DNA from: Burkholderiaceae bacterium
GTDB lineage: Bacteria; Pseudomonadota; Gammaproteobacteria; Burkholderiales; Burkholderiaceae_C
DNA: 64,000 nucleotides
Direction: 5' to 3'
Assembly: GCA_024710165.1 (NCBI GenBank)
Contig: JANJVG010000004.1
Coordinates: forward strand, 1 to 64,000
A program made the translations under genes and the position numbers. Positions 45,498 through 52,652 of the stretch are shown one piece after another. A model generated the notes under the pieces. It saw nothing but the letters and a program-made list of their open reading frames with translations, was not told the DNA's origin and did no database searches. How positions within the stretch are numbered: the first letter of the stretch is position 1; each line of letters opens with the position of its first letter.

Positions 45498-48400
45498 ATG
45501 ACCATCCTATCCAGCGACATTCGCCTGCTCGAATCCGAGCGCATGACCGACACCACCGACGGCGGTGGTCGGCGCACCAACCGCGTGATCCCCGACGGCG
45601 TGGCGGGCAACATTTTTCCCAAGGTCTCGCGGGTCGATTCGGTGTACGGCCGGGTCAACCTCCGCAAGATTTACCCGCACATCAACACCGCAAACCTGGA
45701 CGTGTACGCGGGCGCGCACATGATCGTCACCGACGCGCCAGACAACGACCGCATAAGCGTGCTAGCGTTTTCCACCGGGAGCGACTTCGACAACCGCACC
45801 GCTGCACGCGACCGAATCGAGAGCTACGTCATCGCCGGGCCACTGAGCCGAATGACGCTGTACGGTCGCCAGCTCAGCGGCGCGGGGGCCATCCTGGCGT
45901 ACCAACGCGAAGATGAGCCGCTGCCAGAGATTGGCGAGGTTTACTCCATCAGTTCGGAGACGCTCGGCAGCACGACCGCCCAGCAGTATGTCCGGCTGCA
46001 GGACGTTGCCCACGAAGTGCGGACATTCGAGGATGGCTCCGGGTCTTTTCGCATGCGCGTACTGACTCTCAAAATTGGCTCTCCGCTGCGATACGAGTTC
46101 CATGGCGTTGCAACTCCAAGCCGGTTCTCCGGAGCGCATGAGTCGATCACTGGCAAGATGCGGACGACCACAGTTGCCGATGCCGCTCGGTACTACGGCA
46201 TTCAGCCGCTGTCCGCTGCGGTTTCGTCTGGCGCGCTGGATTTGTCGGTGGCGTCTGTTTACGCGCCCATCGTGCCGACCACACAGCGCGAGACTGCACT
46301 GAGTTTGGCGAGTGTTGCGGGGGCGGCGTTTGGGCTCGATTGCGCTGCTGTCGCTGTGAACGAGCCCACCTACAACCGTGTGGTGGGCGCGACCAACTTT
46401 GTGTACCGCACGGCGCTGCCCATCAAGCCGGGCACGTTGGTGATTTCAGACGGCTATATCAGTAGCGACAACGGCGTGGGGGGCATCGCGCCACCGCCGT
46501 CGATAAACAACGGGTACGTGGGGACTATAGATTACGAATCCGGCACGCTGAACCTGACAGCGGTGAACATCCACAGCTACCCGCCAATGAACATCAGCTA
46601 CGTGCCGCAGGTATACGTCAACCAGGCCGCCCACACGCACGCTATCGAGATCACTCTAGGTACACGCGGCACGGTATACGCAGTGCCGCTGCTGCCATTG
46701 CCAGCGCCCGGCACGCTGATCGTGGACTACCGCGCGCTCGGAAAGTGGTACCGCCTGCGCGACGATGGCACGGGTGCGCTGTCCGGGGGCGATGCGCAAT
46801 ACGGCACCGGCACGGTGGATTACGTCACGGGCGGCGCCACCGTCACCCTGGGGGCTTTGCCAGACGTGGGCAGCAGCGTGCTGCTGTCATGGGGCAGCCC
46901 GGTGCACTACGAAGTGCTGACCGCAGCGCCCGTGGCCGGTTTTGAAACAACACTTTCACTGACGCCCGTCAAGCCCGGCACCGTGGTGCTGACGTGGGAC
47001 GAAGATGGCACCACGAAAACCGCAACAGACAACGGCACAGGCGGCTTCACCGGCGCAGCCACGGGCACCATTGCCTACCAGACCGGGCAGCTAAAAATCG
47101 TCATGCCAAAGCCCATCGTGGGCGATGTGGACATTGCGTATGAGCAGTACACCGCACCGCCCGTGCAGCCTGCATTGGGCCGTGTGCACGACTTTGGCGG
47201 CGCCATCAGGCCGCTCACCGTGGTGGTGGAAGGTGCCCGCTACACCCTGCCAGACGGCAGCGTCCACACCACCGTCCTTATCGACATCGGCGATGGCCGC
47301 CTGGTGCCCAGCTACTCCAGCTTGATGGGGAACAACTACGCGCTGACATCGCACGTCGTCGGCACGGTGGACTATGCCACCGGCGCGCTGGAGCTTTTTG
47401 AGCAAGTAGGCGTCGAGGGCCGGGGCGTGTGGGACGCCGAAAACAAATACTGGACATCACCGCCGCCAGGCGATGTGGCGAGCATCACATCCGTCGCCGC
47501 CTACAGTGCAGCGCTAGTGTCCGCTGGTGAAGGCGTCACAGAGCGCTCCACCGTCGTAGCCGTGGGCAACGAAGGCCTTGGCCTGCGGCTCAAGATGGGC
47601 AACTCACTCCCGCGCGCCATCGTCCCTGGTTCCGTCATGTTCACGTTGGGCGGCAAAACCCATGTGGACCGCAGCGGCGCCATCTACACCGACCTGAGCG
47701 CCACAACGGGAAGCGGGCGCGTCGTTGGCAGCATCAACTACGACACCGGCGATGTGTCCATGAGCGACTTCCCAGACGGAGTCTCGACCGGCATCACTAT
47801 CCAGTCGTGCCTGGCCGTAAAAGGCAGCTTCACAGCGCTGGAGACAGCCTTCCGCACCGCAGGCAGCCCCATCCGCCCGGCCAGCCTGTACATCCAGTGC
47901 ACCGCCCTCGATGGCGAGCTGCTCACGGCCACGACAGACCAAAACGGCGTCATCACCGGCGTACCCACCACAGTGGCCTACCTCGATGTCGTAGGGGCCA
48001 CGGGCATGACCGGAACCATCGAGCAAAGCATGGGCGTGGTGCGCCTGACCTTTGCCAAGCCCGTGCTGCCCGGCACCCTGCGTTACAGCGCGGTGGTGCT
48101 GTCCAACTTGCCGCTCAACGCCGACATTCTTGGCCTCGACCCCGTGCGCCTGCCCAGCGACGGCCGCGTGCCCATCTACCGCCCTGCCGATGTGACGGTG
48201 ATCCACCACACCGACATCCACAACGCAGGCACGCCCGAGGCGGCAGAAGTGATCGACGTGGGTCGCACCGATCTGTCTGCCCTGTGGCTGGAGGATGCCG
48301 ACAAAAAGAAGCTGGCAGCAGGCATGTATGCCGTGGACCTGGCCGCAGGCACCGCCACCATGGCCGCAGACCTGGACCTGACGGGCTACACGTCGCCCAT

Positions 48401-48974
48401 CGTGGCAAAACATCGCATCGAAGAAATGAACCTGCTGTCGGATGTGCAGATCAACGGCCAGGTCACGCTCACGGCGCCCCTGCTGCGCGACTACCCCGCA
48501 GGCAGCCTGTTGAGCAGCGCTCTTTTGTATGGAGACCTGCAGGCCCGCGCGACAAATCTTTTCGACCAGCAGACATGGACTGGCGTGTGGCAAAACACCC
48601 TGATCGGCAGCGGCGCCACAGCGCAGTACAACGATGTGGACTACCCAATCGAAATCCTCAACAACGGCGCCATCACCGAACGCTGGCGACTCAATTTCAC
48701 CAGCACCACCAGCTTCCAGATCATCGGCGAGAACATGGGCGTGATCGGCACCGGCACCACCGGCGTGGACTTGCAGCCCGTCAACCCGCTCACCAGTCAG
48801 CCCTATTTCACGCTGCGCGCCGCAGGCTGGGGCAGTGGCTGGGCAACTGGCAACCAGCTACGCTTTGACACCATCGCCGCCGCTCCGCCCACCTGGCTGG
48901 CGCGTTGCGTGCTGCCCGGCGCTGCCCTCACTGGCGACAGCTTCGACGCGCAACTGCGCGGCGATGTGGATTAA
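45498..48974 (+). CDS. Large modular tail-tip protein (1158 aa)
   Basis: N-terminal 240 residues are a unique domain (ILSSDIRLLESERMTDTTDGGGRRTNRVIPDGVAGNIFPKVSRVDSVYGRVNLRKIYPHI...). From about residue 300 to 880, at least five degenerate beta modules repeat a G(T/S)(V/I)xYxTGxxxL-type strand pair (GTIDYESGTLNL, GTVDYVTGGATV, GTIAYQTGQLKI, GTVDYATGALEL, GSINYDTGDVSM), each preceded by a (K/A)PGT(L/V)-type start. The C-terminal 220 residues form another unique beta domain. It probably forms part of the tail tip, possibly receptor-facing. Confidence 0.7.
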   Translation: MTILSSDIRLLESERMTDTTDGGGRRTNRVIPDGVAGNIFPKVSRVDSVYGRVNLRKIYPHINTANLDVYAGAHMIVTDAPDNDRISVLAFSTGSDFDNRTAARDRIESYVIAGPLSRMTLYGRQLSGAGAILAYQREDEPLPEIGEVYSISSETLGSTTAQQYVRLQDVAHEVRTFEDGSGSFRMRVLTLKIGSPLRYEFHGVATPSRFSGAHESITGKMRTTTVADAARYYGIQPLSAAVSSGALDLSVASVYAPIVPTTQRETALSLASVAGAAFGLDCAAVAVNEPTYNRVVGATNFVYRTALPIKPGTLVISDGYISSDNGVGGIAPPPSINNGYVGTIDYESGTLNLTAVNIHSYPPMNISYVPQVYVNQAAHTHAIEITLGTRGTVYAVPLLPLPAPGTLIVDYRALGKWYRLRDDGTGALSGGDAQYGTGTVDYVTGGATVTLGALPDVGSSVLLSWGSPVHYEVLTAAPVAGFETTLSLTPVKPGTVVLTWDEDGTTKTATDNGTGGFTGAATGTIAYQTGQLKIVMPKPIVGDVDIAYEQYTAPPVQPALGRVHDFGGAIRPLTVVVEGARYTLPDGSVHTTVLIDIGDGRLVPSYSSLMGNNYALTSHVVGTVDYATGALELFEQVGVEGRGVWDAENKYWTSPPPGDVASITSVAAYSAALVSAGEGVTERSTVVAVGNEGLGLRLKMGNSLPRAIVPGSVMFTLGGKTHVDRSGAIYTDLSATTGSGRVVGSINYDTGDVSMSDFPDGVSTGITIQSCLAVKGSFTALETAFRTAGSPIRPASLYIQCTALDGELLTATTDQNGVITGVPTTVAYLDVVGATGMTGTIEQSMGVVRLTFAKPVLPGTLRYSAVVLSNLPLNADILGLDPVRLPSDGRVPIYRPADVTVIHHTDIHNAGTPEAAEVIDVGRTDLSALWLEDADKKKLAAGMYAVDLAAGTATMAADLDLTGYTSPIVAKHRIEEMNLLSDVQINGQVTLTAPLLRDYPAGSLLSSALLYGDLQARATNLFDQQTWTGVWQNTLIGSGATAQYNDVDYPIEILNNGAITERWRLNFTSTTSFQIIGENMGVIGTGTTGVDLQPVNPLTSQPYFTLRAAGWGSGWATGNQLRFDTIAAAPPTWLARCVLPGAALTGDSFDAQLRGDVD

Positions 48975-49411: not shown

Positions 49412-50320
49412 ATGGCGAAAGACGCAGATTTCGACAAGGTCAGCCTGCTGCTGCATTGCGATGGGGCGAACGGGTCGACCAACATTGTGGACAGCAGCCC
49501 GGCGGGGCATGTGGTGACAGCGTATGGCAATGCGGCCATCAGTACGGCGCAGGGCGTTTTTGGCCTGCCGTCGCTCGCCTTTGACGGTGCGGACGACTAC
49601 TGCACGCTGCCCGATGTGGCGGCTCTGGAGTTTGGCGCGGCTGACTTCACAGTCGAGTTCTTCATCCGCACCACGCAAACGTTGACGTACGCCTGCCCTA
49701 TGGGGCGCGACACCGGCAGTTTTCCGGTAGGGGCCTGGGCGATTCTTATAAATGGCAACGGCAGCGGGTCAATCCAGTTATGGAACGCCAGCTACAGTCA
49801 AGGCTCGGTACACCTGAGTACCTCGGCATCACCGCCCCTGAATGACGGCGCTTGGCACCATGTGGCCCTGGTGCGCAATGGCTCTGCATGGGCCTTGTAT
49901 GTGGACGGCACATCCCGCGCCACGAACACCTGGGCGGGCACCATGGCCGACGTGGCGCTGCCTATCAACCTGGGGCGCGACCCCGGTTACGGGCGCGACT
50001 TTTCCGGGCACCTGGCGCAGGTCCGCATCACCAAGGGCCTGGCCCGCTACACCGCCAATTTCACCCCGCCCACGGAGCCATTTCCCATGGCCGGGAGTTT
50101 CTCCGGCACGGTGATGAGCGCCAGCGGCGCCCCGGCGGCGCGTCTTGTTCGGGCCATGCGTGAGGATACCGGGGCTTTTGGCGGCAGCGCCACAAGTGAT
50201 GCCGGCACCGGGGCCTACTCCATCCCTGCCACAAGCGAAGGCGCCCACACTCTGATCGCCTACCCCGGCACGGGCGAGGACTTGCCCGCCCTGCTGCTGC
50301 GCGGGGTAACCCCGGTATGA
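49412..50320 (+). CDS. LamG/concanavalin-like lectin tail protein (302 aa)
   Basis: Residues 8-225 match the LamG-like jelly roll: VSLLLHCDGANGSTNIVDSSPAGHVVTAYGNAAIS...FDGADDYCTLPDVAALEFGAADFTVEFFIRTTQ...DGAWHHVALVRNGSAWALYVDGT...LGRDPGYGRDFSGHLAQVRITKGLARYTANFTPPTEPF. Such domains bind sugars in many phage tails. A C-terminal domain (SGTVMSASGAPAARLVRAMREDTG...) resembles a carboxypeptidase-regulatory-like beta sandwich. It may bind the host surface. Confidence 0.82.
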   Translation: MAKDADFDKVSLLLHCDGANGSTNIVDSSPAGHVVTAYGNAAISTAQGVFGLPSLAFDGADDYCTLPDVAALEFGAADFTVEFFIRTTQTLTYACPMGRDTGSFPVGAWAILINGNGSGSIQLWNASYSQGSVHLSTSASPPLNDGAWHHVALVRNGSAWALYVDGTSRATNTWAGTMADVALPINLGRDPGYGRDFSGHLAQVRITKGLARYTANFTPPTEPFPMAGSFSGTVMSASGAPAARLVRAMREDTGAFGGSATSDAGTGAYSIPATSEGAHTLIAYPGTGEDLPALLLRGVTPV

Positions 50321-50985
50321 GCTACACGCCGCCCGCTGGCGACGCCGCGAACTTTTCCTGGGTGGGGGTTGCGGCCTACACGCCGCCTGCTGGCGACGCT
50401 GCCAATTTCGCTTGGGCGCCCTCTGGCACAACTGGCACTGGCGCGGGCACGCTCACATTCACAGGCACCGCCACCGCCGCCCACGGCATTGCCGGTACCG
50501 GTGCGGGTGCTCTGGCCTTCACCGGCGCCGGTACCGCAGAGCACACCAGCACGGGCGTGGAGGGCGTGGGCGCTGGCACGCTGCCATTCACCGGCGCGGG
50601 CACCGCCGCCCACGGCATCGCGGGCACCGCAGCCGGTGCGCTCGCCTTTACCGGCTCGGCTACAGCGGTCCACGGCATTGCCGCCACGGGCGCGGGTGCC
50701 ATCGGCTTCACTGGCGCAGGCGTGGCCCTGCACCCCCGGTATGAGGTGCGCGGCGAGGTGCGCCTGGGCGGCATTTTGGTAAACCGGCGCGTGCGCTGCT
50801 ACAAGCGCAGCACGGGCGAGCTGGTGGGCCAGACCGACACCGTGGCCGGGCTGTACCGCGTGCCTGCAGGCTTTGACGCTGGCGAGGTGTACGTCACTGC
50901 CATCCATCTCGCTGACGCCGCCACCGACTGGATACCTCCCACCGCAAACCGCCTGGTGCCCGTGCTGGCCGAGGACACCGCATGA
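50317..50985 (+). CDS. Tail protein with tandem Gly/Ala/Thr repeats (222 aa)
   Basis: The N-terminus has a duplicated YTPPAGDAANF(S/A)W motif. Residues 38-140 hold five tandem units near 20-21 residues of the form GTGAGTLxFTGxGTAxHGxA. The last 80 residues form a separate domain (RYEVRGEVRLGGILVNRRVRCYKRSTGELVGQTDTVAGLYRVPAGF...) like the tail of the lectin protein upstream. Likely a tail-tip or receptor-binding part. It overlaps both neighbours by ATGA. Confidence 0.72.
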   Translation: MSYTPPAGDAANFSWVGVAAYTPPAGDAANFAWAPSGTTGTGAGTLTFTGTATAAHGIAGTGAGALAFTGAGTAEHTSTGVEGVGAGTLPFTGAGTAAHGIAGTAAGALAFTGSATAVHGIAATGAGAIGFTGAGVALHPRYEVRGEVRLGGILVNRRVRCYKRSTGELVGQTDTVAGLYRVPAGFDAGEVYVTAIHLADAATDWIPPTANRLVPVLAEDTA

Positions 50986-52652
50986 GCGCCCAGCCCGCCA
51001 CCGCCGTCATCCTGGCCTACGGCCCGCAGGGAGCGCAGCAGGCCGCCACGGCTGTGCTGCTGTCATACAGCCCGCCGCCCGGGGCTGCCCGCCGCGTGGC
51101 GGCCACGTTCGGTGCGCCGTGGGGCCAATCCACCCCCCGTGCCCTTGAGGCGCGCGGGGCCGCAAACCACCCCGACCCGCTCGACACCGAAGCCCGCGCG
51201 CCTTGGGGCGAGGGCGCACCGCAGCACAGCGATGCGCGCGCCGCCTGGGCGCCGCCCAGCACGCTCGACCGCGAGCGCAGTGCCCCCTGGCAGCAGTTCG
51301 CCCGCCGCCTGCAGCCGCAGGCCACCGGCCCGTGGGGCATCGCCAGCAAGCAAGACGCCACAGGCGCCTACCCATGGGGCGAGTTCGCAGGCCGTCCAGC
51401 GCTCACTGCGTCATCCGAGTGGCTGCGCGCGCTGGTCGAAGACCAGCAGGCCACCGGGCCATGGGGTGAGTTCGCCAGCCGCCCCGCGCTGCTGGTGCGC
51501 CCCGTGTGGGCCATTGCGCGCCACGCCGATGCCGAGCGCTGGATTCCGTGGACACGCTTCAGCCGCACCCTGCAGCCTGGTTGGGGCGTTGTCACCCCAC
51601 CCGGCGGCCCGCCAATTGACGAACACGGCACCGTGCTGGTGCCCGTGCGAAGGGTTTACATGACGACCAACAACCTAACTCTAATGCGCGCATCAGACGG
51701 TGCCAGCATCCCGGCCTACAGCATCGGCATGTCGCTAGATGCCGACTCGTGGACCTGGAGCTGGCAGGCCACGCTGCACGCCGCTGCGCTGCCGCTGATC
51801 CAGCCCGGCCCCGGCGGCGACCCGGTGGACGTGCTGGCCACCGTCAACGGCACGCCCTACCGCCTGTGCGTGGAGCAATACGCCCGCCAGCGCAGCTTTG
51901 AGAGCACCCGCATCAGCGTGCGCGGCCGGGGCCGGGCAGCCATCCTCGATGCACCCTACGCGCCCACCCTCAACCACGGCAACACCGAGCCGCGCACTGC
52001 AGAGCAGCTCATGGCCGACGTGCTCACGATCAACGGCGTTGGCATCGGGTGGGATGTGGACTTTGCCCTGACCGATTGGCTGATCCCCGGCAACGTGTGG
52101 ACCCACCAGGGCAGCTACATCAGCGCCATCCTTGAGATTGCCGCCGCCGCCGGCGGCTACGTGCAGCCGCACGACACCGCCGCCACCCTGCGCATCCTGC
52201 CCCGCTACCCGGCTGCGCCATGGGCGTGGGGCGACCTCACACCGCACTTCGAGCTGCCCAGCGCCGTCGTCAGCGTGGAAGGCATCGACTGGCGGCGCAA
52301 GGCCGCATACAACCGCGTGCACGTCAGCGGCACCAGCGCCGGAGTGCTGGGCGAAGTCACCCGGGGCGGAACCGCAGGCGACGTAGTGGCGCCCATGGTC
52401 ACAGACGCCCTCATCACCCATGCCGACGCCGCACGCCAGCGCGGCCTGGCCGTGCTGGGCGACACCGGCACGCAGGCCCACATCAGCCTTCGCCTGCCAG
52501 TATTGGACGAAACGGGCGTCATCCCGCCCGGCGCGCTGGTGCGCTATGTAGACGGCGCCACCACGCACCTGGGCCTGGTGCGCGCCACGTCGCTGGAGTG
52601 GGGCGCCCCCAAGCTGCGCCAGACCCTCACCGTGGAGACGCACCCAGCATGA
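50982..52652 (+). CDS. Tail hub-like protein with Trp-rich repeat region (556 aa)
   Basis: Residues 40-205 contain six or more units built around (A/G)PWG or RxPWxxF (for example ARAPWGEGAP, ERSAPWQQFARRLQ, TGPWGEFASR). From about residue 225 the protein is a regular tail-hub-like fold (MTTNNLTLMRASDGASIPAYSIGMSLDADSWTWSWQATLHAAALPLI...VSVEGIDWRRKAAYNRVHVSGTSAG...), similar to gp27/baseplate-hub domains of phage tails. It probably crowns the tail tube and anchors the tip proteins. Confidence 0.75.
   Translation: MSAQPATAVILAYGPQGAQQAATAVLLSYSPPPGAARRVAATFGAPWGQSTPRALEARGAANHPDPLDTEARAPWGEGAPQHSDARAAWAPPSTLDRERSAPWQQFARRLQPQATGPWGIASKQDATGAYPWGEFAGRPALTASSEWLRALVEDQQATGPWGEFASRPALLVRPVWAIARHADAERWIPWTRFSRTLQPGWGVVTPPGGPPIDEHGTVLVPVRRVYMTTNNLTLMRASDGASIPAYSIGMSLDADSWTWSWQATLHAAALPLIQPGPGGDPVDVLATVNGTPYRLCVEQYARQRSFESTRISVRGRGRAAILDAPYAPTLNHGNTEPRTAEQLMADVLTINGVGIGWDVDFALTDWLIPGNVWTHQGSYISAILEIAAAAGGYVQPHDTAATLRILPRYPAAPWAWGDLTPHFELPSAVVSVEGIDWRRKAAYNRVHVSGTSAGVLGEVTRGGTAGDVVAPMVTDALITHADAARQRGLAVLGDTGTQAHISLRLPVLDETGVIPPGALVRYVDGATTHLGLVRATSLEWGAPKLRQTLTVETHPA

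Follow-up and report, generated by a model that had tools for sequence, protein, structure and literature searches.

The tail fibres of the Xanthomonas oryzae phages OP1, Xp10 and Xop411 have the domain layouts 1-2-3, 1-2-2-2-3 and 1-2-3-3-3 (PMC2248197). In the Enterococcus phage EfV12-phi1, 1.8-kb in-frame tandem duplications in a tail-fibre gene arose in laboratory coevolution (PMC6365445), and duplications of small domains in the T4 adhesin gp37 are attributed to Tetart et al. 1996, as cited in PMC9603124 and PMC2248197. The repeats of Campylobacter phage CP220 were considered as a further parallel and set aside, the repeat regions being tied there to genome expansion, with no mention of tail fibres found (PMC2853527). 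A search for literature on glycine-rich tail repeats and intragenic tandem repeats found nothing on point.

Here we describe a gene for a 222-aa protein with five Gly/Ala/Thr-rich units in the window, by which we mean the whole 64,000-nucleotide stretch that was analysed (contig JANJVG010000004.1 of a Burkholderiaceae bacterium). As in the Xanthomonas phages, whole in-frame units differ in number between related phages (PMC2248197). There, however, the number changed recently, and in mutants it is tied to host range, whereas the units of the window protein have diverged and their number is constant in close orthologues; the likeness drawn here is one of pattern. The locus also resembles EfV12-phi1 in having an in-frame tandem duplication in a gene probably concerned with host contact, but in that phage the duplications are 1.8 kb long and laboratory-derived, whereas the window units are 60 bp long and appear to be old. 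T4 gp37 is a trimeric fibre. It differs as a protein from the window's and is likened to it here, for repeat gain in a tail adhesin, by description alone, as given in the papers that cite the original work.

Results

Gene order and placement at the tail tip

The features on which the analysis rests, all on the forward strand, are as follows.

45498 to 48974, forward: large tail-associated protein (phrog_6128) that opens the tail-tip block; order kept in the isolated phages S1, AS1 and Haddon
49412 to 50320, forward: 302-aa LamG (concanavalin-like) protein (PF13385, E 7.6e-22), upstream of the repeat gene; its C-terminal domain resembles that of the repeat protein
50317 to 50985, forward: open reading frame of the 222-aa repeat protein
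50317 to 50433, forward: N-terminal double hairpin module, YTPPAGDAANFxW twice, which heads many repeat proteins in viral contigs
50434 to 50493, forward: repeat unit 1, GTGAGTLTFTGTATAAHGIA
50494 to 50562, forward: repeat unit 2, GTGAGALAFTGAGTAEHTST, with a 3-aa insert (GVE) at a position common to the five-unit orthologues
50563 to 50622, forward: repeat unit 3, GVGAGTLPFTGAGTAAHGIA
50623 to 50682, forward: repeat unit 4, GTAAGALAFTGSATAVHGIA
50683 to 50742, forward: repeat unit 5, ATGAGAIGFTGAGVALHPRY
50737 to 50982, forward: C-terminal domain, the conserved part of the protein; possible beta-sandwich (CnaB/transthyretin-like), from weak fold matches
50982 to 52652, forward: tail protein (phrog_6079), downstream; hub fold in the C-terminal ~350 aa, Pro-Trp-Gly repeats in the N-terminal ~210 aa

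At each end the repeat gene overlaps its neighbour in an ATGA, the start codon with the upstream stop and the stop codon with the following ATG, an arrangement that looks like that of a translationally coupled operon. The gene sits in the tail-tip block directly beside the hub gene. Modelling of the last ~350 aa of the downstream protein gave a pLDDT of 85.7, and Foldseek matched this domain to contractile-injection (CIS), Mu gp44 and T4 gp27 hubs at E 2.9e-19 and weaker; hmmsearch related it to Mu gp44 (1wru) at E 0.0042. The 222-aa protein itself has no Pfam and no PHROG match, and the phrog_6079 hub domain belongs to the next gene and not to it. Phages S1, AS1 and Haddon carry this block after the tape measure gene or whichever gene occupies its position. 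Because the next gene has a hub fold, a LamG gene stands before the repeat gene and the block order is as in isolated phages, we infer with good reason that the product is located at the tail tip, as the original prediction had proposed.

The C-terminal domain was modelled by AlphaFold (AF2) at a pLDDT of mostly 66-79 over residues 141-200, and in Foldseek it weakly resembled SpyCatcher and the B domains of SdrD (E 0.06-0.13). In seven members no Pfam match to CnaB or CarboxypepD_reg-like families rose above the family cut-off, and PF13620 on the upstream LamG protein (E 0.037) is likewise below its cut-off. A single hhalign profile comparison weakly matched the domain to the C-terminus of that upstream protein (probability 49%). 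Together these matches hint at a CnaB/transthyretin-like fold.

The slot before the repeat gene was compared across the window and five relatives (L007, L070, L088, L089 and L090). A LamG gene fills it in the window and L070; judged by eye, L088 has an SGNH-hydrolase-like gene there and L089 one that is discoidin-like. The products often end in a similar small domain. From these comparisons the slot may be one in which host-recognition modules are swapped. On the other side of the repeat gene, the N-terminal ~210 aa of the hub protein (50982-51611) form a second repeat region with motifs around 'PWG', where dN against L006 is higher (0.13) than in the hub domain (0.07). Relatives in the family have WQEA-type repeats at the same place on the hub-type protein.

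A diverged five-unit array

The array occupies residues 40-142 (50434-50742), with units of about 20 aa starting at residues 40, 60, 83, 103 and 123 and the 3-aa insert following unit 2. Gly, Ala and Thr make up 72 of its 103 residues. Comparing the protein with itself gave an identity of 0.45 at lag 20 and of 0.52 at lag 43, whereas none of 5000 shuffles exceeded 0.375, so that its periodicity is far above chance even given its composition. The five units are thus real, as originally described, but the description of them as near-identical does not hold: identity between units averages 61% in amino acids and 64% in nucleotides, and the best pair reaches 80%. The span first assigned to the repeat, 50317-50740, does contain the array, but its first part, 50317-50433, codes for the different, two-copy hairpin. 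In the AF2 model of the whole protein, residues 1-140 have no confident structure (pLDDT < 50); a beta structure and a spacer role for this region are suggested by composition and periodicity.

The DNA had also been thought repetitive enough for slippage. Slippage in the window gene is not supported, because the units have diverged, Tandem Repeats Finder (TRF) reports no array at the gene, and at a spacing of 60, that of adjacent units, no exact run reaches 12 nt. Among direct repeats in the gene, the longest exact one measures 18 nt, with a spacing of 129; about half of the residues common to two units have different synonymous codons, and the gene lacks homopolymer and short-unit tracts, the longest run being GGGGG. 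The window gene therefore lacks what characterizes a contingency locus, DNA repeats close to perfect or simple tracts in which slippage could occur.

Unit number among orthologues and relatives

Exactly five units are found in four orthologue haplotypes with 46-79% amino acid identity to the window protein, a small sample of five haplotypes with the window counted. At the upper end is the G013 gene (79%), which is also the gene of MESL01000051.1 and of IMG/VR contig 3300002460_000052; L088 (71%) and L007 and L070 (both 47%) likewise have five units. Across these five-unit orthologues the 3-aa insert stays in place after unit 2, and for most orthologue pairs few or none of the 120 permutations of the units score better than the true order. 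Against the closest relative, L005, units in the same position are 0.83 identical and those in different positions 0.56, and the repeats contain no indel.

Selection was gauged against two relatives. In the comparison with L005 the repeats gave dS 0.50, dN 0.09 and a ratio of 0.18 (0.09-0.31), and the C-terminal domain a ratio of 0.22; with L088 the ratios were 0.33 and 0.14, respectively. This pattern points to old units held by purifying selection on the protein.

Other relatives have other counts. Four units are present in L142, where the alignment to L070 shows a gap of 19 aa; L089 has three; L090 has four, of a different motif; and in L101 (contig 3300002461_000147) there are at least six, the last complete unit being followed by an exact copy. 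This exact 60-bp tandem (L101 3295-3455) scores 231 in TRF, and its exact run at spacing 60 extends over 71 nt; the count is a lower bound, the contig ending inside the tandem, and assembly may affect both count and tandem. The contig end at this place is itself likely to be an assembly break in a longer array. Between L101 and the window, positional orthology of the units is lost (0.58 versus 0.57). Two further matches were rejected: L003 (G020, E 2.9e-4) is spurious, since it runs antisense to a normal chromosomal gene and is interrupted by stops, and L086 (G360) has no hairpin-headed open reading frame.

With three, four, four and at least six units in these relatives, unit number does change in the family. 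The comparison supports slow change, apparently by gain or loss of whole units over long times, given the five units in all four orthologue haplotypes. Constant copy number with silent divergence, which had been named as the opposite outcome, describes those four haplotypes but not L142, L089, L090 or L101.

A hairpin-headed family in viral contigs

A profile of the N-terminal hairpin matched 46 viral contigs. Internal periodicity was significant (p<0.01) in 22 of 39 distinct hairpin-headed proteins, a set that includes the window protein and two genome loci; most periods lie between 17 and 23 aa, 20 being the commonest, and the motifs are unrelated. The period rather than the motif looks to be under constraint. 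The isolated-phage records searched contained no homologue of the window protein or of the L084 repeat type, and a search of plasmid DNA gave no match.

In L111 and L116 the hairpin stretch matches phrog_26999, annotated 'tail assembly protein'. In L105, L111 and L131 the N-terminal hairpin of the window protein is fused to a hub-type tail protein with the Mu gp44/T4 gp27 type of fold (L111 matches phrog_6079), and in other relatives the phrog_6079 proteins carry N-terminal repeats of their own, whereas in the window hairpin and repeats are encoded apart from it, in a gene that supplies a C-terminal domain of its own; the window arrangement looks like a split or fusion variant. L084 (1501-2526) and L085 (1501-2388) have the same hairpin followed by about 12 'GFxATxFGTP' units, without the window-type C-terminal domain. 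Within the window gene, codons 1-36 (50317-50424) have nucleotide identities of 0.81 and 0.72 to L088 versus 0.59 and 0.37 to L005, and the remainder is mostly nearer L005 than L088, as would be expected of a mosaic gene joined where the hairpin module meets the repeats.

Discussion

We propose, with somewhat better than even confidence, that the units of the array are old and diverged, that they make up a beta-rich part of the tail tip serving as spacer or adhesive arm, and that their number changes slowly. The gene product would be a structural protein associated with the tail tip of a temperate, siphophage-like prophage of a Burkholderiales host. Its N-terminal double hairpin probably attaches the protein to the tip, the five Gly/Ala/Thr units of about 20 aa would follow as the spacer or sticky arm, and a CnaB/transthyretin-like domain may end the protein, beside the lectin-like module and the hub. 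The DNA of the units appears by now too diverged to slip easily. Over evolutionary time a whole unit would occasionally be gained or lost, after which the units would drift apart again. An effect of unit number on host contact or host range is plausible.

A faster process, in which slippage or unequal recombination rapidly varies unit number and thereby tunes host contact, as tail-fibre domain duplications do elsewhere, would account for the differing counts among relatives and for the exact 60-bp tandem of L101, and it has precedent in tail-fibre gene duplications tied to host range or infectivity (PMC2248197; PMC6365445). We nevertheless regard it as unlikely: adjacent units of the window gene share no exact run of at least 12 nt, TRF finds no array there, and all four orthologue haplotypes have five units at 46-79% amino acid identity. 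Gene conversion, which would homogenize the units within each phage and leave their number unchanged (concerted evolution), fits the fixed number and insert position, and in distant pairs identity within proteins (window 0.61, L007 0.42) equals or exceeds the 0.39 between proteins at the same position. However, this pattern would also result from parallel selection on a fold that the proteins have in common, and in the closest pair same-position identity (0.83) is far above that within each protein (0.61 and 0.53); we consider this process very improbable.

The array could instead be a low-complexity linker with a passive role: a flexible tether of Gly, Ala and Thr that keeps about the same length and looks repetitive only because it arose by duplication. 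Its composition, the very low AF2 confidence and the wide drift of the motif among relatives are all as expected of such a tether, but the conserved register and 3-aa insert are not, nor is the recurrence of a period of about 20 aa with unrelated motifs. Constraint on the repeats is no weaker than on the C-terminal domain in the comparison with L005 (0.18 versus 0.22), although with L088 the order is reversed (0.33 versus 0.14). On balance a purely passive role seems improbable, and we retain the proposal of an old, slowly changing spacer or adhesive arm. The orthologue data correct the tempting reading of the repeat as a slippage switch; the unit number of this tail-tip protein nonetheless evolves. 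From the comparisons available, the repeat would be a component of the phage tip that changes slowly, and not a fast genetic switch.

Repeat-bearing tail-tip proteins are already known as a kind, and the hairpin-headed family, for which there is no Pfam or PHROG model, is a more interesting by-product of this work than the repeat itself. The simplest account of the wider family would be that a structural period is constrained and that sequence and unit count drift. More tentatively, and at rather less than even confidence, we suggest that these proteins form a widespread, unnamed, modular tail-tip class, in which a conserved double hairpin is joined to repeats whose period of about 20 aa is fixed by structure, with turnover of both motif and unit count and an internally similar motif peculiar to each phage; beside the tail hub, the repeats could then act as a length ruler open to evolution or as an adhesive arm. 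The period of about 20 aa kept across unrelated motifs offers a testable case in which structure may constrain the period, and sequence and count drift, in a region that is probably one of host contact.
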